A stretch of DNA of 44,331 nucleotides from Parvibaculum sp. (lineage in GTDB: Bacteria > Pseudomonadota > Alphaproteobacteria > Parvibaculales > Parvibaculaceae): NCBI GenBank assembly GCA_030682415.1, contig JAUXOE010000118.1, positions 1 through 44,331 on the forward strand. The letters run 5' to 3'. The position numbers and the translations under genes were made by a program. The notes below the pieces were generated by a model. It saw nothing but the letters and a program-made list of their open reading frames with translations, was not told the origin of the DNA and searched no databases. Positions 12,311 to 23,946 of this stretch are shown one piece after another; position 1 is the stretch's first letter; each line of letters starts with the position of its first letter.

Positions 12311-13129
12311 CTATTGCGCGAGACCGAACAGACCGCGTTCGCCCGGCAGAACACGGAAGGCGTTCGAAATCCCGACGACGGTTTCGGCACCGCCGAGACA
12401 GAGATAACCCCAGGGACGCAGCGTCTTTGCGAGACCGGCGAATACCTGTCTGCGCGTCGTCTCATCGAAGTAGATCAACACGTTGCGGCAGAAGACAATG
12501 TCGAAACTGCCAAGACCGCTCGCGACCGGGTCGTCGAGAAGATTGTAGCGGCGAAACTCGATCATGTTGCGGAGCTTATCCTTGACGCGCCACCCGTCCT
12601 TCTCGGGTTCGAAGTGCTTCTGCACCATGGCCTCGGGCAGGCCGCGCGAAACTTCGAAGACGGAATAGCGACCTGCCCGGGCCCGGGCAAGCATCGCATC
12701 CGATATGTCGGTTGCGACGATCTCGACCTGCCAACCAGCAAGCGCCGGGCCCATGCTGTCAACCGTCATGGCCAGCGAGTAGGGCTCCTGCCCGCTCGAA
12801 CAGGCTGCGCTCCAGATGCGGATGCGGCGTGACGATTTGTTCATCGCCATGACTTCCGGCAGCAGACTCGAACGCAGCCGCTCGAACGGCCAGCCGTCGC
12901 GGAAGAACAGCGTTTCGTTCGTCGTCATGGCGTCGACGATCTGTGTCAGCGCGGCGTCGTCGCGCGTCCGGCGGATCTGTTCAATCAGGCTGCCGACGCT
13001 CTCGACGCCGCGGCGCCGCGCGATCGGCATCAGGCGGCTCTCGATCAGGTAGCCTTTTTCCAGCGTAACGACGAGACCGGAGCGCTCGTAGAGCATCTGT
13101 TTCAGATAGTCGAATTCGGCCGGGTTCAT
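12311..13129 (-). CDS. cheR: Chemotaxis protein methyltransferase CheR
   Basis: A 272-residue S-adenosylmethionine-dependent enzyme that methylates glutamates on chemoreceptors. The N-terminal helical domain (about 1-75) precedes the methyltransferase domain with the conserved RIWSAACSSGQEPYSLAM motif, the DISDAML adenosine-binding loop and the FDIVFCRNVLIYFD motif. Length is normal. Its ATG overlaps the cheB stop by four bases, so the pair is translationally coupled. It is the last gene of the chemotaxis operon, and downstream lies gene-free remnant DNA. Confidence 0.96.
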   Translation of the reverse strand: MNPAEFDYLKQMLYERSGLVVTLEKGYLIESRLMPIARRRGVESVGSLIEQIRRTRDDAALTQIVDAMTTNETLFFRDGWPFERLRSSLLPEVMAMNKSSRRIRIWSAACSSGQEPYSLAMTVDSMGPALAGWQVEIVATDISDAMLARARAGRYSVFEVSRGLPEAMVQKHFEPEKDGWRVKDKLRNMIEFRRYNLLDDPVASGLGSFDIVFCRNVLIYFDETTRRQVFAGLAKTLRPWGYLCLGGAETVVGISNAFRVLPGERGLFGLAQ

Positions 13130-14247
13130 TTACCTTCTCCTGAAGCGATACGCACAATGGCGGGACCGATTTTCTGCAGCGGCAAAATCTCGCTGCACAG
13201 GCCGGCCTGCGCGACAGCGCCGGGCATGCCCCAGACGACGCTGGTTTCGCGATCCTGCGCGAGAACCCGACCGCCCTGCCCGACGACGTCCCCGCAGCCC
13301 TTGAGCCCGTCGCATCCCATGCCGGTCAGGATCACCGCGAGAAGACGTTCCTTGCAGAACCGCGACAGGCTGCGCAGCATGGGATCGACGGCGGGCTTGC
13401 AGGAGTTTTCCGGCGGCCCATCGTCGAGACGGATGATGAGGCCTCCCGCCGCGCGCGGTTCCACAACGAGATGCTTGCCGCCCGGCGCGATATAAATGTG
13501 GCCGGGTTCCGGGATGTCGCCGTCGCGGGCCTCGCTTGCAGGGCGGCCCGAATAGCGCGTCATGTGTTCGGCGAGCAGTGCGGTGAAGCTCGCCGGCATG
13601 TGCTGCGTGACCAGGATCGGCTGACGTATCGATGGGTCGAGGTTCTTCAAGACTTCCGCCAGCGCCTGTGGGCCGCCGGTCGAAGAGCCTATGGCGATGA
13701 TGTCGGGTGGGACCGCCTGATCTCTCTCACGACGCCGGACGCGCGGCGCAGGTACGGGCTTGACCGGCGGCACGGGTGTCTTTTTCCTGGCGCCGTGCGT
13801 TTCGGCTGCCTTGCATGCCGCGTGATGCCTGACTTTGGCAACGAGTTCAGCCGTGAAGCTTTCGGCGCCTCCAAGACCGGCACTCGGCTTCTGCACGAAA
13901 TCGACGGCGCCGATCGCCATTGCCTTCATGGCGATGTCTGCATCGCGGTGGCTCGCGGCCGATGCCATGACGATTTTCAGATCGGGGTCGACCGCAAGAA
14001 GCTGCGGCAAGGCCGCCATGCCGTCGAGCTCCGGCATTTCGATGTCGAGCACGACGACGTCGATCTCGTGACGCCGCATCGCCTTCAATGCCTGCAGCCC
14101 GTTGGGCGCCGATGCAACAACCTCGATGTCGGGCTCCTGATCGAGAGTTCGCGTAACGATGCCGCGCGCGACGGCGGAATCGTCGACCACCATCACTTTG
14201 TATAGCTTGTTTTCGGCATTGGCCGTCGTTCGCAGATCGGTCGCCAT
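13126..14247 (-). CDS. cheB: Chemotaxis response regulator methylesterase CheB
   Basis: A 373-residue two-domain protein: an N-terminal receiver (about 15-135, phosphorylation site in VVVLDIEMPELDG) and a C-terminal methylesterase with the catalytic serine motif IGSSTGGPQAL, a THMPASFT loop and the ILTGMGCDGLKG segment. It removes receptor methyl groups, activated by CheA phosphotransfer, and forms the adaptation pair with CheR. The start follows a strong G-rich ribosome-binding site (GGGGGGGTAA). The linker is Lys/Pro/Arg-rich. Confidence 0.96.
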   Translation of the reverse strand: MATDLRTTANAENKLYKVMVVDDSAVARGIVTRTLDQEPDIEVVASAPNGLQALKAMRRHEIDVVVLDIEMPELDGMAALPQLLAVDPDLKIVMASAASHRDADIAMKAMAIGAVDFVQKPSAGLGGAESFTAELVAKVRHHAACKAAETHGARKKTPVPPVKPVPAPRVRRRERDQAVPPDIIAIGSSTGGPQALAEVLKNLDPSIRQPILVTQHMPASFTALLAEHMTRYSGRPASEARDGDIPEPGHIYIAPGGKHLVVEPRAAGGLIIRLDDGPPENSCKPAVDPMLRSLSRFCKERLLAVILTGMGCDGLKGCGDVVGQGGRVLAQDRETSVVWGMPGAVAQAGLCSEILPLQKIGPAIVRIASGEGK

Positions 14248-14272: not shown

Positions 14273-14764
14273 TCAGGATTTGTCGTCGGCCATCAGAAGT
14301 TCGTCCACCATGCCCTGGCCGAGCCCGTTGCCCGGCAGGGCCGGTCCATTGAGCAGGGAAGATTTTTCCGCGACGTCGCCCACCGCGACGTTATCGTTTT
14401 CCAACGCATCGAGACATTGCGCCAGCGCTCCAAGTGTCTCGATCGTGTGCGCGATGCGCTGACCTGTGATGTCCTGAAAACTGCATGCTTCCATGAGCTC
14501 GCCGCAGCAATCGGCCACCACAGCCGCCGCAGCGTCAGGGTCGGAGAAATCGATGGCGACCATGCGTTCCGCGGCACCCATGATGCGATCGACGGCGGCT
14601 TCCATTTCGTTTCTGGCCGTTCGTTGTTCCTCCATGGCACGTGCCAAGCCGCCGATTCGGAAGTCCCGATCGAGCAGGTCTTTCAGGTGCCGGCGGCGGC
14701 GAAAGGCAACCCGGTAGAGATCGACGCATTCGTCGGCAATACGTTCGAAGAGATTTTGCGCCAT
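14273..14764 (-). CDS. cheZ: CheZ-family chemotaxis phosphatase (short form)
   Basis: A 163-residue helical protein with the CheZ active-site signature CSFQDITGQRI, whose Gln inserts into the CheY active site to speed dephosphorylation. Its C-terminus (MVDELLMADDKS) resembles the CheY-docking tail. It is shorter than the roughly 210-residue enteric CheZ, with a reduced N-terminal hairpin. It starts two bases after the cheY stop. CheZ is less common in alphaproteobacteria than phosphate-sink CheY proteins, so this operon uses an enzymatic off-switch. Confidence 0.88.
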   Translation of the reverse strand: MAQNLFERIADECVDLYRVAFRRRRHLKDLLDRDFRIGGLARAMEEQRTARNEMEAAVDRIMGAAERMVAIDFSDPDAAAAVVADCCGELMEACSFQDITGQRIAHTIETLGALAQCLDALENDNVAVGDVAEKSSLLNGPALPGNGLGQGMVDELLMADDKS

Positions 14765-14766
14765 CG

Positions 14767-15153
14767 TCAGAAATCCCCCAGTACGGTCTTCAGTTTTGCC
14801 TTGAGGATTTCGGCGCTGAATGGCTTGATAATGTAGTTGTTGACGCCGGCTTGGCGCGCGGCCACGACATTCTCGGCCTTCGATTCGGCTGTGACCATGA
14901 CGAAGGGGAGCGAGGAAAGCGCCGCGTCGCCGCGCACTTCCTTCAGAAGCTCGTAGCCGGTCATAGGCTGCATATTCCAGTCGGATATCACGAGCCCGTA
15001 GGTCCGTTTGCGTAGCTTTTCCAGCGCGTCCTTGCCGTCGGTTGCTTCGTCGATATCGGTGAAACCAATCTTGTTGAGCAAGTTGCGCACGATCCGCAGC
15101 ATGGTCCGGTAGTCATCCACGATCAGAATTGGCATCTTCAGGTCGACAGCCAT
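14767..15153 (-). CDS. cheY: Chemotaxis response regulator CheY
   Basis: A 128-residue single receiver domain. The acidic pocket is in LIVDDY near the start, the phosphoacceptor Asp is in LVISDWNMQP (about residue 57), and the switch Thr (VMVTAES) and Lys (IIKPFS) are in place. Phosphorylated by CheA, it should bind the flagellar motor or another output. It lies between cheW and cheZ. No motor genes are in this window. Confidence 0.95.
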   Translation of the reverse strand: MAVDLKMPILIVDDYRTMLRIVRNLLNKIGFTDIDEATDGKDALEKLRKRTYGLVISDWNMQPMTGYELLKEVRGDAALSSLPFVMVTAESKAENVVAARQAGVNNYIIKPFSAEILKAKLKTVLGDF

Positions 15154-15189: not shown

Positions 15190-15669
15190 TCAGGCATCGG
15201 CACGGATCGAACCGAGCACGTCGGCAACCCCGAGTACGATGAGAAGCCGGTCGTCGAGCCGATAGATGCCCTGCGCAACATCGCGCCAGCGCGTATCGAG
15301 TGTCGCCGGTACGGCCTCGCGGCGCTGCGCGGGCAGGCTCAGCACTTCTCCGACCTCGTCGACCAGAAGACTGAACGGCTCGTCGTCATGCTCGACGACC
15401 ACGGCCATCGCCTTCGCGACGAAATCGTCCGCCGGAAGTCCGAGACGCTTGCGCATATTGATCGCCGTGACGATGCGCCCCCGCAAATTCAGGGAGCCGG
15501 CGACCTCGTCCGGCGCGAGCGGCACCCGGGTGATGTTCTGCGGTCCGAGAACGTCGCGAACATTCAGCACGGGAATACCGAAGGCCTGGCCGCCAACGCT
15601 CATGGTCACATAGTCGTCAGCCGCACCGGTGGTGGTGTCGGACAAATTGTTGTCGGCAACAATACTCAT
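15190..15669 (-). CDS. cheW: Chemotaxis coupling protein CheW
   Basis: A 159-residue single CheW domain that links receptors to CheA. Typical features are YVTMSVGGQAFGIPVLNVRDVLGP at the N-terminus, the LNLRGRIVTAINMRKRLGL core and LLVDEVGEVLSLP. It overlaps the cheA stop by four bases, so it is coupled to CheA synthesis. The N-terminal 18 residues are polar and unstructured. Confidence 0.95.
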   Translation of the reverse strand: MSIVADNNLSDTTTGAADDYVTMSVGGQAFGIPVLNVRDVLGPQNITRVPLAPDEVAGSLNLRGRIVTAINMRKRLGLPADDFVAKAMAVVVEHDDEPFSLLVDEVGEVLSLPAQRREAVPATLDTRWRDVAQGIYRLDDRLLIVLGVADVLGSIRADA

Positions 15670-18572
15670 GCTGCAATCTCCGTTGCGGACTCGTCGGACG
15701 AAAGAACCCGTGACAGAACACTCAAGAGCGCCTTTGGATCGAGCTTGGTCACGTAGTCGGTGAACCCGGCGCTCATACCACGCTCGATGTCTTTCGGATT
15801 GGCATGCGACGAAAGTGCAATGATCGGAACTCCCTTCATCTGCGCATCGCTCTTCAGCATTCGAGCAAGGTCGAAGCCCGAAAGTCCCGGCATTTCAATA
15901 TCGGAAACGATGATGTCGAAACGGCCATGGTCCTTGCATATTTCAATCGCAGCCTCGCCGTGCTCGGCGACCGTGACGTGATAACCCGCAAGCGTCAGCA
16001 TCGGCATCAACAGGTTGCGAAAGAACGCGCTGTCTTCTACAAGCAACACGTTGCGGCTGTCTTCCTCGCCGAATGCCTTTTCCGTTTCCACGCTGAACCA
16101 GTCCGGATCGCTCTGGCGCAGGTAGTGGACGGTGTCGATGACATCGGTCGTGGCGCCGGCGATGATGGCGCTGCCGAGAATGCCCGGACGGCTGCCACCT
16201 GCGAGCTGCAGATCGAGCGGCGCTTCAATGATGTCGATGACGCGATCGACGACAAGGCCGAGCATGCGATGACCGTCGACGAACACCAGGATCGGGTGCT
16301 TGCCGCTTCGGGCGGCAGGCTGGCTGTCGAGACCAATCAGCGGCATCAGGCCGCCGCGATATTGCAGCACGGTGCGGGCGCCCGCCTGTTCCGCCGTCGA
16401 GAGGTCAGCCTCCTCGAGACGCGCCACCAGCGATAGCGGCACCGCCTTCGGCCCGCCGTCGCCAGTCTGGAATACCAGCATCGAGACAGCGTCGCGACCG
16501 CGCACTTGATGGCTTCCGTCCGCCTGCTGAGTCGCCTCGACATGGGGGGCGGCGGAAACAGCAGTGGCAAGGCCGTTCGGATCGAGGATCATGATCACGC
16601 GGCCGTCGCCGAGTATCGTCGTCCCTGAAAAAGAGGGAATGTGCCGGATGGTACGCGACACGGGCTTGACCACGATTTCCTCGGTGTCGAAGACCTTGTC
16701 GACGATGATACCAAAGACGAAGGCGCCGACCTGAGAGACGACAACATAGGTGCTTCCGGGACCGTCTTCTTCCTCGGCGGCGTCGGTGCGCGGAAGGTCG
16801 AGAATTTCAGCAAGAGAGACGAGCGGCAGCAACCTGTCGCGCAGCCGGTAAACCGGACGGCCGTTGATACTCTCAAGACCCTTCTCCGAAGTGTGGCTGA
16901 TGCGCACGAGCTCAATGACGCTGTTCTGCGGCATCGCGAAGCGCTCGCCGGCACATTCAACGATGAGCGCCGACACGATGGCCAACGTCAGCGGTATCTT
17001 GATGACGAAACGCGAGCCTGCGCCTTCGGTCGACTGGAATTCGATGATGCCGCCGATCTTCTCGATGTTGCTGCGCACCACGTCCATGCCGACACCGCGA
17101 CCGGAAACACTGGTGACAGCGGCGGCGGTCGAGAAACCGGGACGGAAGATGAACTGCTGTATCTGCTGCTCGGTCATCGTCTCGAGCTGAGATTCGGTTG
17201 CGAGACCGTTCGCCACCACCTTCTCGCGGATGCGGGCTGTCGGCAGACCGCGGCCATTGTCGGAGACTTGAACGACGATATGTCCCCCTTCATGGCGCGC
17301 GGACAGTTCGATCGTGCCGTGTTCAGGCTTCCCGGCGGCAAGGCGTTCGCCTACCGTTTCGATGCCGTGATCGGCGGAGTTCCGCACCATATGGGTCAGC
17401 GGATCGCGGATCGACTCCAGTATCTGGCGGTCGAGTTCGGTATCGGCGCCGAGCATGATGAGTTCGATCTTTTTGTCGAGTTCCTGTGTCAGGTCGCGCA
17501 CCAGCCGAGGCAGTTTTCCCCAGGCGTTGCCGATCGGCTGCATGCGCGTCATCATCACGCTCTCCTGCAGTTCGGTCGTGACCTGGTTCAACCGCTGCAG
17601 CGGCGGTCCGAAAGGGCTATCACCGCAGCCGCGCAGGATCTGCAGAAGCTGGTTTCGCGTCAGCACCAGTTCGCTGACCATCGTCATCAGGTCTTCGAGA
17701 ACATTGATGTTGACCCGCAATGTTTCGGCCTGCCCGGCGGCCGCATCGCGTCTTTCGGCTGGCGGCGCCGTTTCGGGTCGGCCGGCTTTCGGTGCCGCCG
17801 GCGCGGGTGCGGCGGCCGGCTTCGGCTCCTCTCGGCTCAGGAGGCCAAGCAGCGCCGTCACATCTTCGGCGTTGACGGCCAGCGACGCGAAGGCTTTGCC
17901 GATCTCGCCGCGCAGCGTACCGATGTCGCTTTCGGTCCAACCGTTGTCGGCCAGACAGGTCAGCACATCCGCGATGTCGATGCCGGGCGTCTTCTGCAAG
18001 GCAACAGCAAATCCGCCCGCCAGCGCGAACTGCAATCGCAGCATGTCGGGCGCCAGTGCATCGCCCTGCGCGACTTTTTCAAGAAAGGCGGCACAGGCGA
18101 TCTCGCAAGCAGTGTCGATACCCGAAGCGCCGCCGGCCCGCTCATAGAGCGTTCCGGGACGGACGGCGGGTGCTTCCGACGCGACAGGCGGAGCTTCTCC
18201 CGACGCAAGCACGCGCAGGGCCGATGTCAATTCATCGTCGCTGCCGGCGGGTTCGCTGCCGCTCGCGCCAAGATCGGCGACCAGCTCCTTGATGCGGTCG
18301 AGAGCGGCAAGCACCAGGGAAACGACCTCCGGCGAAACTTCGAGACCGCCATCCCGCACGCGTCCCAGCACGTCCTCCGCCGCATGCGCCACCGTTTCGA
18401 GGCGCGGCAGACCGAGGAATCCGCAGGTTCCCTTGATCGTGTGCATGATGCGGAAAATGCTGCCGAGCAGCGCCGGGTCTCCCGGCCGTTGTTCGAGTTC
18501 GACCAGCTCGCTGTCCAGCACATCGAGCGCCTCGCGCGTTTCGGCGAGAAATTCCTTGAGAAGATCATCCAT
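15666..18572 (-). CDS. cheA: Hybrid chemotaxis kinase CheA with truncated-globin-like segment, two CheW-like domains and receiver
   Basis: A 968-residue histidine kinase (numbering from ATG 18572). Order: HPt domain with phosphorylated His44 (MHTIKGTCGF); a segment at about 141-247 resembling a truncated globin without its haem-binding region, where P2 is usually found; an Ala/Pro linker; dimerisation helices (about 288-340); ATPase with VRNSADHGIE and SDNGRGL; a CheW domain; a second CheW-like domain (about 690-815); and a receiver with phosphoacceptor near 891 (IIVSDIEMPG). The start MDDLLKEFL is canonical; a GTG at 18587 would add five residues. The receiver may act as a phosphate sink. 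The first gene downstream is cheW, overlapping by four bases. Confidence 0.94.
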   Translation of the reverse strand: MDDLLKEFLAETREALDVLDSELVELEQRPGDPALLGSIFRIMHTIKGTCGFLGLPRLETVAHAAEDVLGRVRDGGLEVSPEVVSLVLAALDRIKELVADLGASGSEPAGSDDELTSALRVLASGEAPPVASEAPAVRPGTLYERAGGASGIDTACEIACAAFLEKVAQGDALAPDMLRLQFALAGGFAVALQKTPGIDIADVLTCLADNGWTESDIGTLRGEIGKAFASLAVNAEDVTALLGLLSREEPKPAAAPAPAAPKAGRPETAPPAERRDAAAGQAETLRVNINVLEDLMTMVSELVLTRNQLLQILRGCGDSPFGPPLQRLNQVTTELQESVMMTRMQPIGNAWGKLPRLVRDLTQELDKKIELIMLGADTELDRQILESIRDPLTHMVRNSADHGIETVGERLAAGKPEHGTIELSARHEGGHIVVQVSDNGRGLPTARIREKVVANGLATESQLETMTEQQIQQFIFRPGFSTAAAVTSVSGRGVGMDVVRSNIEKIGGIIEFQSTEGAGSRFVIKIPLTLAIVSALIVECAGERFAMPQNSVIELVRISHTSEKGLESINGRPVYRLRDRLLPLVSLAEILDLPRTDAAEEEDGPGSTYVVVSQVGAFVFGIIVDKVFDTEEIVVKPVSRTIRHIPSFSGTTILGDGRVIMILDPNGLATAVSAAPHVEATQQADGSHQVRGRDAVSMLVFQTGDGGPKAVPLSLVARLEEADLSTAEQAGARTVLQYRGGLMPLIGLDSQPAARSGKHPILVFVDGHRMLGLVVDRVIDIIEAPLDLQLAGGSRPGILGSAIIAGATTDVIDTVHYLRQSDPDWFSVETEKAFGEEDSRNVLLVEDSAFFRNLLMPMLTLAGYHVTVAEHGEAAIEICKDHGRFDIIVSDIEMPGLSGFDLARMLKSDAQMKGVPIIALSSHANPKDIERGMSAGFTDYVTKLDPKALLSVLSRVLSSDESATEIAA

Positions 18573-18685
18573 GTCGGCGTGCCCCACATCCTGCCTCAGA
18601 CTTACGACAGTAAATCGGGGAATTTAATGATAGATAAAGTCCTCAATTATTATATTTATTCTTTGATTAATACTTGGAGATCAAA

Positions 18686-18709: not shown

Positions 18710-21475
18710 TCAACCAACACGCGCCGGCCGCTGGCCAGCTATCCCCATGGCTTGCCGTGTCCGCGATGCCGGGAAGCGAACCTCGACGCAGGTGCCGCGC
18801 CCAGGTTCGCTGTCGAGAGCAAGGGTTGCATCGTGAAGCGTCGAAAATTGCCTGACCAGCGCGAGACCAAGCCCGACACCGTCGAAGCGTCGCGACAGAC
18901 TGCCCTCGACCTGGACAAAGGGATCCATGACACGCTCGATGTCCGCTGCGTCGATGCCGATGCCGTTGTCTTCGACGCGTAGAGCGATGCCACCGCCGAC
19001 ATCCATCCGGGCAGAAAGCGAGACCGTGCCCGCGGCCGGCGTGAACTTGATCGCGTTCGAAAGGAGGTTGAGCAGTATTTGCTTCAGAAGACGCGCGTCG
19101 GCAAAGAGGCCAGGGAATCCTGAGGGAATCAGGCCGCCAAGCAACAGACTGGATTGAGCCGCTCGGCCTTCGACCGTCCGTATGCAGGCATCAAACAGTT
19201 CGGCGAGATCGAGTACCGTTTCGTCAAGTTCGGTTACGCCGATCTCGATGCGGCTCAGGTCGAGGATGTCGTTGATGACAGCGAGAAGATGATTGCCGCT
19301 GTCATTAATGTCCTTGGCGTAGATGCGGTACTGCCCCACCTCCATCGGACCCAGCACGTCGCTTGCCATCAGTTCGGAGAATCCGATGATTGCATTGAGC
19401 GGCGTGCGCAACTCGTGGCTCATATTGGCAAGGAACTGTGACTTCGACTGATTGGCAAGTTCGGCGCGGCTGCAGGCTTCGCGCAGCTCTTCGGTTACAT
19501 GGTTGATCGTCGTCGTGTCGAGAACAGTACCACGCATGCGCGTCGGCTTGCCACCGGCATCACATTCGATCTCGGCCTGTTCGCGCACAAACCTGATCGA
19601 ACCGTCCGGCAGGACCACGCGATGTTCAATCCCGTAGGGTTCGAGAGTCTCAAGCGCATATGTGACGGCCTGTTCGACTTCGGCACGATCGTCGACATGA
19701 ACATGCTCAAGGAAGACCGGATAGGACATCTCAATGGATTGCGGCTCGAGACCGAATATCCGATAGGCTTCGTCGGACCACTGGAGTGTATTGGACGCGA
19801 TATCCCATATCCAACCGCCCAGATGAGCAATCCTTTCCGCCTCGGCGAGATTATGCGCGCTTTCGCGCAACGCCGCGACAGCGCGGTGACGATCCGTGAC
19901 GTCGTAGCATCCGATCAGCACGACGCTCTCGCCCGCAAGGCTCATCAAGACCGCCGACAACGCACACCAGGTGACGTTGCCGCTGTCTTTTCTGACCGGC
20001 GTCTCTATTCCATCGGTCCTTCCATCCGCAGTCACGCCGCCGGACAATTTTTCGAAGAGGCCCGCGTCGAAGAATTCCGCAATATTGCGACCCACAACTT
20101 CGGGCAATGCCGTCTCAACAAGCTCGGAAAAGGATCCATTGGAAAACAGAATTTCGCCATCGGTCAGGCGCGCGATTGCGATTCCAAAGGGCATCGCCTC
20201 GACGATCATGCGCAGCTGGCGCTCACGCGCATGCAACGCGTCCTCGGCTTGGCGCAGCACCGTTAGATCCCGTACAACAGCCGTATAGGATACTTCATTC
20301 TCGATCGTCATACGCGAAACCGAAGCCTCTGCCGGAAATTCGCTGCCATCCTTGCGACGTCCTTTTACTTCGGGGCGCGCCGCCATCAGCATGGTCGAGG
20401 GGCCGTCCTTGCCGAAGCGCGCGATATGCGCCTTGTGACGCGACCGCGCACTTTCTGGCAGCAACACGGCGAGAGGCCGGCCGATGATCTCCGTGGCTTC
20501 ATAGCCGAAGACGCGTTCGGCTTGCTTGTTGAATATCCTGATCGTCTGGCTGCTGTCTGTCGTCACGATTGCGTCGCCCGCTGTTGCCAGCAGTTCGTCG
20601 AGCCTGCGGCATGCGCCGGCTTCCAGCTCTGCATTGATGCGACATTTCAGCGCGAGCCCGACGCGATCCGCTACACCGCGGAGAACCTCCAGTGCCAACC
20701 GGTCCCGCGGCAGAATTCGATTCGTCTCGAAGGCAAGCACAGCAACGATTTCATTGTTGGCCCAGAGCGGCAAGGCGAGCGCTCCGCCCGGCGGCGCGCC
20801 ACCATCGCCAGCATCTACGACTTTGCCTTTGGTGCCGGCACGACAGACAACCTCTCCCGTCCTCCAGGCTTCACCGACGCTGCCGCCATCGCGGGCGTCG
20901 CGCTGCAGTGCCGGAATTTCAGTCTCTCGTTGACGGCTCGCAACATACGCGCCCTTACGAGTACGATGACTCCGACGCACGAGACTGGCGCCATGCGGCA
21001 CCCACACCTCTGCATGAGGCCACGACGTATAGAGGCATATCACTCGCAGCAGCGCATGGAGTGACGCATCGAACGTCGCCGAACGCATGATGCGGTCGAC
21101 AGCCATCTGCGCAAGGCGGAGCCTGCGGTTCTCCTGAACCGATGGCGTAACATCGGTTGCGATGAGGATCGTATTGGCACCGGGCGCCCAGATGCGCGTC
21201 AGCGTCAACTCTCTGCCATCGACCCTGCGACAGCGGCGCCGCAACTCGTAGTTCACCTCTTGAACAGAACCTGCCGTATTCGGCAGGACGGACATCTTGC
21301 TGCCAGCCGTCAGTGTTTTTTCGACCGTCGAGAGCGTGAAGCATTCGGCAGATACGCCGCCAAACTTCTCCAGCAACTCGACGGCGCTCGTGCTTTGCGA
21401 AACCAGCGCTCCGCTGGCGGGATCGAAGACGAAGACCGCTGGCGGAAGCGACTGATCTGGCACACGGCTTACCAT
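18710..21475 (-). CDS. Multi-PAS/GAF sensor histidine kinase, soluble
   Basis: A 921-residue kinase without membrane segments. Order: PAS-like (about 10-110), GAF (140-290), PAS (295-410), PAS (425-540), PAS (550-665), HisKA with the phosphorylated His in FLANMSHELRTPLNAIIGFSE, and an ATPase domain with NLLSNAIKF, DNGIGI and VGLGLALV. No receiver domain is present. It sits between the receptor and cheA genes, 23 bases after the receptor stop, so it probably works beside the chemotaxis pathway, perhaps phosphorylating CheB, CheY or the CheA receiver; that is inference. The several PAS modules could bind haem, flavin or small ligands; no diagnostic residue is clear. Confidence 0.9.
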   Translation of the reverse strand: MVSRVPDQSLPPAVFVFDPASGALVSQSTSAVELLEKFGGVSAECFTLSTVEKTLTAGSKMSVLPNTAGSVQEVNYELRRRCRRVDGRELTLTRIWAPGANTILIATDVTPSVQENRRLRLAQMAVDRIMRSATFDASLHALLRVICLYTSWPHAEVWVPHGASLVRRSHRTRKGAYVASRQRETEIPALQRDARDGGSVGEAWRTGEVVCRAGTKGKVVDAGDGGAPPGGALALPLWANNEIVAVLAFETNRILPRDRLALEVLRGVADRVGLALKCRINAELEAGACRRLDELLATAGDAIVTTDSSQTIRIFNKQAERVFGYEATEIIGRPLAVLLPESARSRHKAHIARFGKDGPSTMLMAARPEVKGRRKDGSEFPAEASVSRMTIENEVSYTAVVRDLTVLRQAEDALHARERQLRMIVEAMPFGIAIARLTDGEILFSNGSFSELVETALPEVVGRNIAEFFDAGLFEKLSGGVTADGRTDGIETPVRKDSGNVTWCALSAVLMSLAGESVVLIGCYDVTDRHRAVAALRESAHNLAEAERIAHLGGWIWDIASNTLQWSDEAYRIFGLEPQSIEMSYPVFLEHVHVDDRAEVEQAVTYALETLEPYGIEHRVVLPDGSIRFVREQAEIECDAGGKPTRMRGTVLDTTTINHVTEELREACSRAELANQSKSQFLANMSHELRTPLNAIIGFSELMASDVLGPMEVGQYRIYAKDINDSGNHLLAVINDILDLSRIEIGVTELDETVLDLAELFDACIRTVEGRAAQSSLLLGGLIPSGFPGLFADARLLKQILLNLLSNAIKFTPAAGTVSLSARMDVGGGIALRVEDNGIGIDAADIERVMDPFVQVEGSLSRRFDGVGLGLALVRQFSTLHDATLALDSEPGRGTCVEVRFPASRTRQAMGIAGQRPARVG

Positions 21476-21498: not shown

Positions 21499-22845
21499 TC
21501 AGGCCGCGCGAGCGCGCGTGAGAAACTTGTCGACCTGTTCGCGCAGCGTTTCGGCCTGACGGGCAAGGATGTCCGAAGAGCCGGAAATCTGTGCGGCCGC
21601 CGAACCCGTCTCGGCAGCGGCTTCAGCGACTGCAACAATGTTGGACGACACGTCCTGAGTGCCGCGCGCCGCCTCCTGGACGTTGCGCGCGATTTCATTG
21701 GTCGCCGCGTCCTGTTCGTCGACTGCTGCCGCAATCGAGGTTGCGATCTGATTCATTTCGGTGATCGTCTTCTCGATTGACTTGATTGCGTCGACAGATT
21801 CCTGCGTCGCGCCCTGCATCGTCTTGATCTGTTCGGCAATTTCCTCGGTCGCCTTCGCCGTCTGGTTGGCGAGGCTCTTGACCTCCGAGGCAACGACCGC
21901 AAAGCCCTTGCCGGCCTCGCCTGCCCGTGCGGCTTCGATCGTCGCGTTGAGCGCAAGCAGATTCGTCTGCGCCGCGATGTCGTTGATGAGGGTCACGACG
22001 TCGCCGATCTTCTGGGCGGCTTCCGCAAGCCCCTGGACCTTGTCGTCGGTGCGACGAGCTTCCTGTACGGCTTGCCCTGCTATCTTGGTCGACATCGACG
22101 CCTGGCGGCCAATCTCGGCGATGGAGCTCGACAATTGCTCGCTCGCCGACGCGACCGTCTGCACATTGGTCGAGGCTTCCTCGGAGGCCGCAGCAACCGT
22201 CGTCGTCTTGGAGCTGGTCTGCTCGGCGGTCACACTCATCGCCTGGGCGGATGCCTGCAGCTCGGTCGAAGCGGAAGCGACCGACTTGATGATCTCGTTG
22301 ACCGCGACATCGAAATCGGCAATTGCAGTTTCGAGCGTCCTCTGACGTCCGGCGCGCTCCTCGACCATCGCATCCTGATAGGCCGAGATCGCGAGGTCCA
22401 TATCGAACATCACCGCCGTGTTGAGCGCGGAGATCACCTCGGCAAGACGCTTCGGCGTCCAGCGATACTTCTGGACTGCGATTTCGACGAGGCGGTTCAT
22501 CACAAATTTATAGCCGCCGATATACCAGCGCGGCTCGAGACCGATACGGTTGTGCGTGAGACCGATCGTGTGAACGCTCTGCATGTAAGCGTCGTCGAAG
22601 GTACCGGAAAAGAGCCGGCCCCAATGCGTGCCCTGCGCCTGTTTCAGGCGCTGCGTCTGGGTGCCGACAAGCTTGGCCAGTTCGGGAACGCTCCCGAGAT
22701 GCGCGTAGAAACTATCGAGAACAGCCGGCAGATGCGGTTCGATCACCGTCCAGAAATCGCGAAGCGCATCGCCTGTTGCTTCCGAAACCTCCATAAAGCG
22801 CATGCGGCCTTCCCGGTCGACGGTCGGCCCTTGGTCCTTGCTCAT
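21499..22845 (-). CDS. Globin-coupled methyl-accepting chemotaxis protein (protoglobin sensor)
   Basis: A 448-residue cytoplasmic chemoreceptor without transmembrane segments. Residues about 15-170 form a protoglobin domain; HNRIGLEPRWYIGGY includes the proximal haem His98. After a coiled-coil linker comes the MCP signalling domain with the hairpin tip (VVASEVKSLANQTAKATEEI) that contacts CheA and CheW. The haem should sense O2, CO or NO, as in HemAT-type receptors. I start it at ATG 22845 because GGTGGGGGA lies 4 bases upstream; a GTG at 22857 is the alternative. It is the first gene of the chemotaxis operon and divergent from an FNR-like gene. Confidence 0.93.
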   Translation of the reverse strand: MSKDQGPTVDREGRMRFMEVSEATGDALRDFWTVIEPHLPAVLDSFYAHLGSVPELAKLVGTQTQRLKQAQGTHWGRLFSGTFDDAYMQSVHTIGLTHNRIGLEPRWYIGGYKFVMNRLVEIAVQKYRWTPKRLAEVISALNTAVMFDMDLAISAYQDAMVEERAGRQRTLETAIADFDVAVNEIIKSVASASTELQASAQAMSVTAEQTSSKTTTVAAASEEASTNVQTVASASEQLSSSIAEIGRQASMSTKIAGQAVQEARRTDDKVQGLAEAAQKIGDVVTLINDIAAQTNLLALNATIEAARAGEAGKGFAVVASEVKSLANQTAKATEEIAEQIKTMQGATQESVDAIKSIEKTITEMNQIATSIAAAVDEQDAATNEIARNVQEAARGTQDVSSNIVAVAEAAAETGSAAAQISGSSDILARQAETLREQVDKFLTRARAA

Positions 22846-22917
22846 AAATTCCCCCACCAGAAACGGGCCGGCGGTGCCGGCCTCAAACCCTCCTTCGCGC
22901 CGGGTCCGGGCTGACAG

Positions 22918-23190: not shown

Positions 23191-23946
23191 GTGAGCAACG
23201 ATATCGAACCGGGCCCGAAGCCGCTTTCCGACAAGTCCAGATTTCGAGCAAGCAGGGGAACTTCCAATGACTGCGGCGCCTGCCCATTCCGGCACGCCAC
23301 GTTCTGCAACGCTGTTTTGGGACCCGGCAAGGATTCAACACGTCGGCGCACATCCGAAGGCACAATCCGCGCGCGCCAACATCTGCACAAACCGGGTGAT
23401 GCGCGCGGGCGGGTCATGGTGCTGCGGGACGGCTGGGCCGTCAGGTTCGCCCAGACCCCCGAAGGACGACGCCAAGTTCTGTCGATCCTGCTTCCCGGCG
23501 ACGTCGCTGGCGGCGACATCCTGCTGCACAACGAGGTGCGCGTGCCCGTGCAGGCGATCACGCCTGTTAAGTATTGCGCATTCGATACTGATGACTTGAA
23601 GGCAATCGCCGATCGCGATCCGAATGTCGTCTGGGCCTTCATGGGTATCTGTTTTTCAGGCCACGAGGCCAGTGAGGCGCGTATTGTCGACCTCGGCCGC
23701 CGTAATGCCGAGCAACGCATCGCGCGGCTCATACTCGATCTTCACGAGCGCCTGACGGCACGCGGGCTCGCCACTGGCGACACGATGCCCTTTCCGCTGC
23801 GCCAGCAAACAATCGCTGACGCGCTCGGACTGACCCAGGTTCATGTCAGCCGTGTGATGACCGCGATGCGGGCGCTGGGCGTCATCCGGCTCGCCGGCGG
23901 CTCCCTGACCGTTCTTGACATGCATGGGCTGCGCGACATGGCTTGA
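23191..23946 (+). CDS. Crp/Fnr-family regulator with four FNR-like cysteines
   Basis: A 251-residue transcription factor: cyclic-nucleotide-type sensor domain (about 55-165), dimer helix, and C-terminal winged helix-turn-helix (QQTIADALGLTQVHVSRVMTAMRALGVI). Three N-terminal cysteines (C28-X2-C31-X7-C39) and Cys129 in VKYCAFDTDDL sit where E. coli FNR places its [4Fe-4S] ligands, so oxygen sensing is likely; E. coli spacing is X2 then X5, so this is a variant. GTG 23191 follows GGAAAG by seven bases. It diverges from the globin receptor gene, which it may regulate (inference). Confidence 0.88.
   Translation: MSNDIEPGPKPLSDKSRFRASRGTSNDCGACPFRHATFCNAVLGPGKDSTRRRTSEGTIRARQHLHKPGDARGRVMVLRDGWAVRFAQTPEGRRQVLSILLPGDVAGGDILLHNEVRVPVQAITPVKYCAFDTDDLKAIADRDPNVVWAFMGICFSGHEASEARIVDLGRRNAEQRIARLILDLHERLTARGLATGDTMPFPLRQQTIADALGLTQVHVSRVMTAMRALGVIRLAGGSLTVLDMHGLRDMA

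Follow-up and report, generated by a model that had tools for sequence, protein, structure and literature searches.

A putative non-haem truncated-haemoglobin domain in the P2 position of the chemotaxis kinase CheA of Parvibaculum

The window, by which we mean the whole stretch of DNA analyzed here (44,331 nt), is contig JAUXOE010000118.1 of Parvibaculum sp. GCA_030682415.1, and the CheA encoded there and its insert are referred to below as the window CheA and the window insert. It carries a chemotaxis cluster in which a CRP/FNR-type regulator on the opposite strand is followed by a HemAT-type receptor, a PAS kinase, CheA, CheW, CheY, a CheZ-like protein, and CheB. The features, by position in the window, are as follows.

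13126..14247, minus strand: CheB (PF01339)
14273..14764, minus strand: CheZ-like protein (PF04344, E 2.7e-4, below that family's cut-off)
14767..15153, minus strand: CheY-type single receiver (PF00072)
15190..15669, minus strand: CheW (PF01584)
15666..18587, minus strand: CheA, 973 aa, in the order HPt, trHb-like domain, dimerization, ATPase, CheW twice, receiver
15723..16049, minus strand: receiver of CheA, residues 847-955 (PF00072)
16563..16970, minus strand: CheW-like domain (P5) of CheA, the higher-scoring of two stretches (PF01584)
16986..17405, minus strand: ATPase (P4), residues 395-534 (PF02518)
17550..17726, minus strand: dimerization domain (P3), H-kinase_dim, residues 288-346 (PF02895)
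17733..17831, minus strand: Pro/Ala-rich variable linker on the C side of the trHb-like domain, residues 253-285 (dN/dS)
17832..18152, minus strand: predicted degenerate truncated-haemoglobin (trHb) domain, residues 146-252 (TLYERAGG...LLSR), about 107 residues (hhalign, dN/dS)
17961..17963, minus strand: Leu209, putative equivalent of F8 (proximal His); Leu, Ile, Met, or Val and never His in 19 rows
18093..18095, minus strand: Cys165, putative equivalent of B10 (distal Tyr); Cys in 19 of 19 aligned Parvibaculum-type rows
18153..18272, minus strand: variable linker on the N side of the trHb-like domain, residues 106-145 (dN/dS above the domain's in five of six pairs)
18288..18566, minus strand: HPt (P1), residues 8-100 (PF01627)
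18710..21475, minus strand: PAS/GAF histidine kinase
21499..22857, minus strand: HemAT-type receptor, protoglobin plus MCP signaling domain (PF11563, E 1.5e-42; PF00015)
23191..23946, plus strand: CRP/FNR-type regulator (PF13545, PF00027)

The window CheA begins with GTG, with an ATG five codons downstream, and was identified as a CheA by the presence of HPt, dimerization, ATPase, and CheW-like domains, all in CheA order by Pfam. It was the sole CheA matched in its genome (93% complete) at E values up to 1e-30, and the closest CheA to it, that of locus L001, matches it at 90% in the core. Pfam returned no matches for residues 100 to 288. A sequence-only reading of this DNA had placed a trHb-like segment without haem ligands at 17832 to 18152 of the minus strand, between the HPt domain and the dimerization helices; that segment is exactly residues 146 to 252 of the protein, and Pfam does put it between HPt (8 to 100) and H-kinase_dim (288 to 346). 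The same reading reported no histidine in residues 141 to 247. None occurs anywhere from residue 69 to residue 398 of the window CheA and therefore none in the interval named.

Searched alone, the window insert gave no trHb match in Pfam or NCBIfam at E values up to 10, and the trHb signal therefore depends on the family profile. In the search against PF01152 that had been proposed, the window insert found nothing at E values up to 10. The insert profile consisted of 13 rows, namely, the window insert and those of 12 further Parvibaculum-type CheAs with the same insert among 80 loci. In hhalign comparisons it aligned with 13 free-type trHbs over 105 collinear columns (95.8%, P 8.2e-9, score 53.3) and with 19 trHb domains of other CheAs over 109 columns (96.3%, score 56.6). 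The maximum scores over 200 column shuffles were 25.4 against the free-type trHbs and 23.3 against the trHbs of other CheAs, the reversed profile scored 7.6 and 12.1 against the same two sets, and the highest score among six further domains taken from these CheAs was 21.2; on these three controls, a chance resemblance to trHbs was rejected. The match of the insert family is collinear over the whole domain, and the order of trHb landmarks that had been read by eye was recovered in the 105 columns shared with the free-type trHbs. Two of those free-type rows (L091 and L157) belong to fusions with PAS or PAS-MCP and a third (L153) ends a long unscanned frame; none was recognized as a CheA.

Pairwise searches were run with the database size set to 24736 and filters off. 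An HMM of the trHbs of other CheAs, containing no Parvibaculum rows, gave the 13 inserts E values of 1.5e-6 to 25 (5 of 13 at or below 0.005; window insert, 0.08), and an HMM of the free-type trHbs alone gave them 5.8e-4 to 58 (window insert, 0.08); at the upper ends of these two ranges, the pairwise scores of some Parvibaculum rows lack significance. PF01152 matched 2 of the 16 members of our set A2, presumably the two Emcibacter rows. In a search of the PDB, the 13-row profile found a cyanoglobin in third place (E 0.2), with unrelated helical chains above or level with it. A 19-row Parvibaculum-only profile found cyanoglobins over about positions 5 to 110 (E 0.02 to 0.17) and HbN (E 0.9); the top match by E value was a designed helical repeat (0.0013, aligned in three short segments), and a fragment of EML4 tied with the best globin. 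The PDB search is weak when taken alone, and the globin assignment is therefore carried by the profile comparison.

The P2 domain of CheA has an alpha/beta fold. The insert shares its position between HPt and the dimerization domain with P2 domains (PF07194, PF09078) and has no sequence match to them. A better match to a known P2 domain, which would have spoken against the globin reading, was looked for at the insert and no P2 family matched; an ordinary P2 domain is ruled out, as neither PF07194, PF09078, nor a CheY-binding family matches there. Elsewhere in the window genome, PF07194 had a lone match on another contig (E 0.8) and PF01152 had none at E values up to 10. A Pfam match of the window CheA to PhageMin_Tail (E 0.03) was rejected as weak and far under the family cut-off.

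Domains with the insert's position and a clear trHb sequence were found in other members of the class. From a sample of 385 alphaproteobacterial genomes, 20 stretches were retrieved on the basis of matches to the insert profile and PF01152. Outside the genus, the insert profile scored best against two CheA frames of about 1000 aa (in genomes G123 and G091), after which came free trHbs mixed with further CheAs. Pfam recognized HPt, PF01152, and the dimerization domain together in 16 cases (L141 to L147, L149 to L152, L154 to L156, L160, and the fragment L159), and it recognized no P2 domain in any of the 16. The P2-place trHb of L155 matches cyanoglobin with an E value of 3e-31. Together with L148 (genome G370), the window genome, and genome G323, these put a trHb-CheA in at least 19 of the 385 genomes. 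L148 was taken as a trHb-CheA on a PF01152 E value of 7e-4 and a match to our A4 profile, of which it is itself a member, with other CheA domains present; the Pfam domain scan of L148 found no globin at E values up to 0.001. For L223 and L224, which lie outside A4 and have no Pfam globin match, the assignment comes from the A4 profile (E 2e-15 and 4e-13, respectively). In a sample of 398 genomes from the phylum, the recognized CheA fusions among the matches listed were all alphaproteobacterial (the window genome, G037, G740, G658, and G680), and in four long frames from outside the class (G567, G604, G605, and G735) the trHb was C-terminal and Pfam found no CheA domain.

Other arrangements were also seen. 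Two CheAs (L152:2354-5953 and L151:2-2620) have two trHbs each: the first occupies the P2 place, the second lies within the CheW domain (P5), and all four have the F8 His. A CheW protein (L158:1979-3184) has a C-terminal trHb that is missing the F8 His, a PAS-MCP receptor (L157:2965-5829) has an N-terminal trHb, and a trHb is N-terminal in a trHb-PAS frame that runs to the end of the retrieved stretch (L091:1447-2496).

The residues of the haem pocket were compared at the positions that we take to be B10, CD1, E7, E11, and F8 in these alignments. In the 19 aligned Parvibaculum-type rows, F8 is Leu in 9, Ile in 5, Met in 3, Val in 2, and His in none, and B10 is Cys in all 19 rather than Tyr. 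In the eight rows compared at the remaining positions, CD1 is never Phe, in a part of the alignment that is gappy, and E7, E11, and F8 are hydrophobic. Positions of the insert that are invariant (19 of 19) include Cys25, Gln46, and Trp77. Of the 19 rows, 17 have a further cysteine at insert position 21 and 14 have one at position 71, the five rows that are missing Cys71 being L009 and L230 to L233. Non-Parvibaculum CheAs contributed 24 trHb domains, of which 11 have the F8 His and 13 have another state there (Phe in seven, a gap in three, and Arg, Gln, and Lys in one each). Outside CheA, free and fused trHbs keep the His in 16 of 17 cases, the exception being the trHb fused to CheW. The full set of Tyr B10, Phe CD1, Leu E7, Gln E11, and His F8 is found in the P2-place trHbs of L154, L155, L156, L159, and L160 and also in the second trHbs of L152 and L151. 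By these alignments, the window insert has lost four residues of the haem pocket that some related CheAs keep in full, namely, the F8 His, the Tyr at B10, the Phe at CD1, and the Gln at E11. In the trHbs of L142 and L144 to L146, the stretch around F8 is deleted, unlike the route of ligand loss in Parvibaculum.

The survey of related CheAs that the sequence-only reading had called for therefore found class-mates whose CheA has a group I trHb in this position, 11 of the 24 such domains having the proximal His. Its suggestion that the region of the haem residues is shortened stood insofar as the alignment is gapped ahead of the E region and again in the E-F/GGP region, but the difference amounts to just about four residues. 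Globin ancestry, loss of the haem ligands, and the P2 position of the insert were all borne out at the level of sequence. Because of the profile match, the ligand loss, and the trHb-bearing related CheAs, we interpret the insert as a non-haem trHb in the P2 position of CheA, probably descended from a haem-competent trHb and predicted to bind no haem.

Many CheAs of the class do without a globin. No trHb match was found in 65 of the 80 loci; five of the 65 (L024, L025, L048, L051, and L069) have a linker that is cut or misaligned and are not counted as trHb-less, and about 60 of 80 combine a readable linker with no trHb. The CheA core is 57 to 66% alike in three other genera of the family, with 48 to 49% for a second piece in genus g2, and the seven CheAs whose linker was read in those genera all have a low-complexity linker, with no trHb match in any of them (0 of 7); the order-level genome sample consisted of the same 40 genomes as the family-level one. 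Four plasmid-borne CheAs (two from Azospirillum and one each from Microvirga and Rhodovastum) had no trHb match. In a number of trHb-less CheAs (L235 to L241, L019, L055, L070, and L244), the low-complexity linker contains a recurring motif like RPGEVSLDELERAFQEAEGPE, which occurs twice in L244 and is perhaps a linear docking motif replacing P2. Other recurring linker motifs were seen in L038, L033, L060, and L036, e.g., NEFGAPVAAELLEEV, which occurs three times in L038.

Of 104 CheA rows, 29 were dropped as fragments or near-copies; a tree of the remaining 75 cores, built without the insert columns, grouped the 15 Parvibaculum rows in one clade (support 100). This clade lies inside a 19-row clade (support 95) with the His-keeping L143, L154, and L156 and with L046, which is long-branched and His-less; the 18-row clade without L046 has a support of 56. 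The other three of the six His-keeping rows (L141, L152, and L155) are elsewhere in the tree. On the core tree, at least 3 changes are required to explain the F8 state of the rows with a trHb and at least 7 to explain where the trHb is present, and a single clade of all trHb-CheAs was not rejected (p-AU 0.24). In a tree of the domain only, which is weak and has long branches, the Parvibaculum domain is unplaced and does not join the domain of its His-keeping sister.

Within the genus, an orthologous CheA was present in 19 of 27 genomes, and the insert was present in all 19, which rules out an artefact of one assembly. Among the remaining eight genomes, some of which are incomplete, seven had no CheA match at E values up to 1e-30 and G760 had two more distant ones. 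For six pairs of Parvibaculum-type genes, the dN/dS of the insert was 0.02 to 0.18 and that of the core (residues 286 to 830) was 0.03 to 0.10, figures that are rough because several pairs approach saturation at synonymous sites. The linker on the C side had values of 0.37 to 0.62 in four of the six pairs, dS being saturated in the other two, and the linker on the N side exceeded the insert in five of six (in one of these by dN only, as the linker dS was saturated) and fell below it in one. The insert sequence is under constraint, and its dN/dS of 0.02 to 0.18 rules out pseudogene decay.

The HemAT-type protoglobin receptor (21499 to 22857) shares the chemotaxis cluster with the window CheA, and a HemAT-type gene stands beside CheA in 11 of 11 main-type Parvibaculum loci (L001 to L008, L010, L013, and L065) and also in L229 and L234. 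No such gene was found within the 3.5 to 6 kb of upstream flank of L009, L228 (from the same genome), L230, L232, and L233; L231 has no upstream flank in this comparison. The rows without Cys71 thus include every one of L009, L230, L232, and L233, and the absence of Cys71 and that of the HemAT-type gene may be a single event. Because the HemAT-type receptor stands in the cluster of CheA, Parvibaculum probably has globins of two types working in one chemotaxis pathway.

Group I trHbs (PF01152; HbN and cyanoglobin) share their landmark order with the insert, align with it collinearly over 105 to 109 profile columns, and directly occupy its site in other CheAs. In contrast to them, the Parvibaculum rows do not have the F8 His, B10 Tyr, and CD1 Phe, they are embedded in CheA, and the window insert falls below detection by PF01152. 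Another close parallel is RsbR of the Bacillus stressosome, which, in the passages of PMC4976288 consulted, is likewise a signaling protein whose globin domain is devoid of haem residues and has haem-binding homologs elsewhere, and whose non-haem globin domain was crystallized with a fatty acid. RsbR differs in that its globin is of the sensor-globin type at the N terminus of a STAS protein, whereas the insert is a truncated globin inside a chemotaxis kinase. Globins in chemotaxis proteins are described, in passages of PMC13401364 and PMC6194562, for receptors, namely, HemAT (protoglobin-MCP) and a Corallococcus MCP with PAS and Bac_globin domains; in these the globin lies ahead of the MCP part, whereas here the kinase CheA carries it. 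The titles and abstract openings of the literature on globins with CheA or chemotaxis, a set mostly without subscription journals and bioRxiv, included no paper on a trHb in CheA, and the passages of PMC1592074, PMC7082302, PMC3770913, PMC6956133, and PMC8788690 that were seen mention no globin in CheA.

We favor, at roughly even odds and on account of its position, the explanation that the domain has been kept as a putative docking or spacing module in place of P2. An ancestor within the Alphaproteobacteria would have acquired a haem-binding, gas-sensing trHb in its CheA, or such a trHb would have spread from one CheA to another within the class; the lineage of Parvibaculum would then have lost haem while retaining the globin fold for docking and spacing. 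The trHb-like domain would do the job of P2, keeping CheY, CheB, or the CheZ-like protein close to HPt once HPt is phosphorylated, and oxygen sensing would be located in the adjacent HemAT-type receptor. We hold this view because of the profile match and its controls, the trHb-CheAs in the class, the core-tree clade shared with His-keepers, the constraint, the absence of a P2 family match, the status of this protein as the sole CheA matched in its 93% complete genome at E values up to 1e-30, and the adjacent HemAT-type receptor. It is possible, though we consider it only about half as probable, that the domain is a non-haem sensor in which the emptied pocket binds a small molecule such as a fatty acid or an alcohol, or in which the conserved cysteines respond, so that CheA activity is changed directly. 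The fatty acid-bound RsbR globin and the haem-free binding of ethanol by HemAT (PMC7542364) are precedents, the ancestral domain was probably a sensor, and the cysteines at B10 and at insert positions 21 and 71 would be candidate responders; however, the hydrophobic residues at E7, E11, and F8 in the eight rows also suit a collapsed core, and Cys71 is absent from 5 of 19 rows.

It is unlikely that the domain is a plain folded spacer, left from a lost sensor and setting the distance between HPt and the kinase core. A low-complexity linker suffices in the about 60 loci and in the seven CheAs of other family genera, which is compatible with a need for spacing alone, but the constraint and invariant positions such as Cys25, Gln46, and Trp77 exceed what a spacer would need. 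Still less probable is that haem is bound through another residue, e.g., Cys165 or a Met, for gas or redox sensing: the B10 Cys is invariant and trHbs of other CheAs have all the usual haem residues, but the F8 His is found in none of 19 rows, the CD1 Phe is found in none of eight (where the alignment is gappy), and His is entirely absent from the window domain. We regard as highly improbable an unrelated helical, P2-like domain that resembles a trHb through convergence or composition. The missing single-sequence match of the window insert and the poor PDB matches (cyanoglobin at E 0.2 and 0.02, with unrelated helical chains above or level) would fit it, but it is contradicted by the shuffles, the reversed profile, and the six control domains, by the clear trHbs at the same site in related CheAs, and by the graded series of scores.

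With the docking or spacing module as the favored reading for Parvibaculum, a broader proposal may be made tentatively, with somewhat less than an even chance of being right: the Alphaproteobacteria may have an unnamed class of O2- or NO-sensing CheAs with a trHb in the P2 place, and in two cases a second trHb in the CheW domain, in which the kinase itself reads the gas, and several lines including Parvibaculum may have lost the ligands and converted the domain to a thiol or ligand switch or to a docking domain. The globin sensors known from chemotaxis are at its receptor end, and one within CheA could allow O2 or NO to be read directly by the central kinase. The series from full to no haem residues at one fixed site would make it possible to test directly how a sensor turns into something else, and in some alphaproteobacterial CheAs it is a trHb that fills the place of P2.
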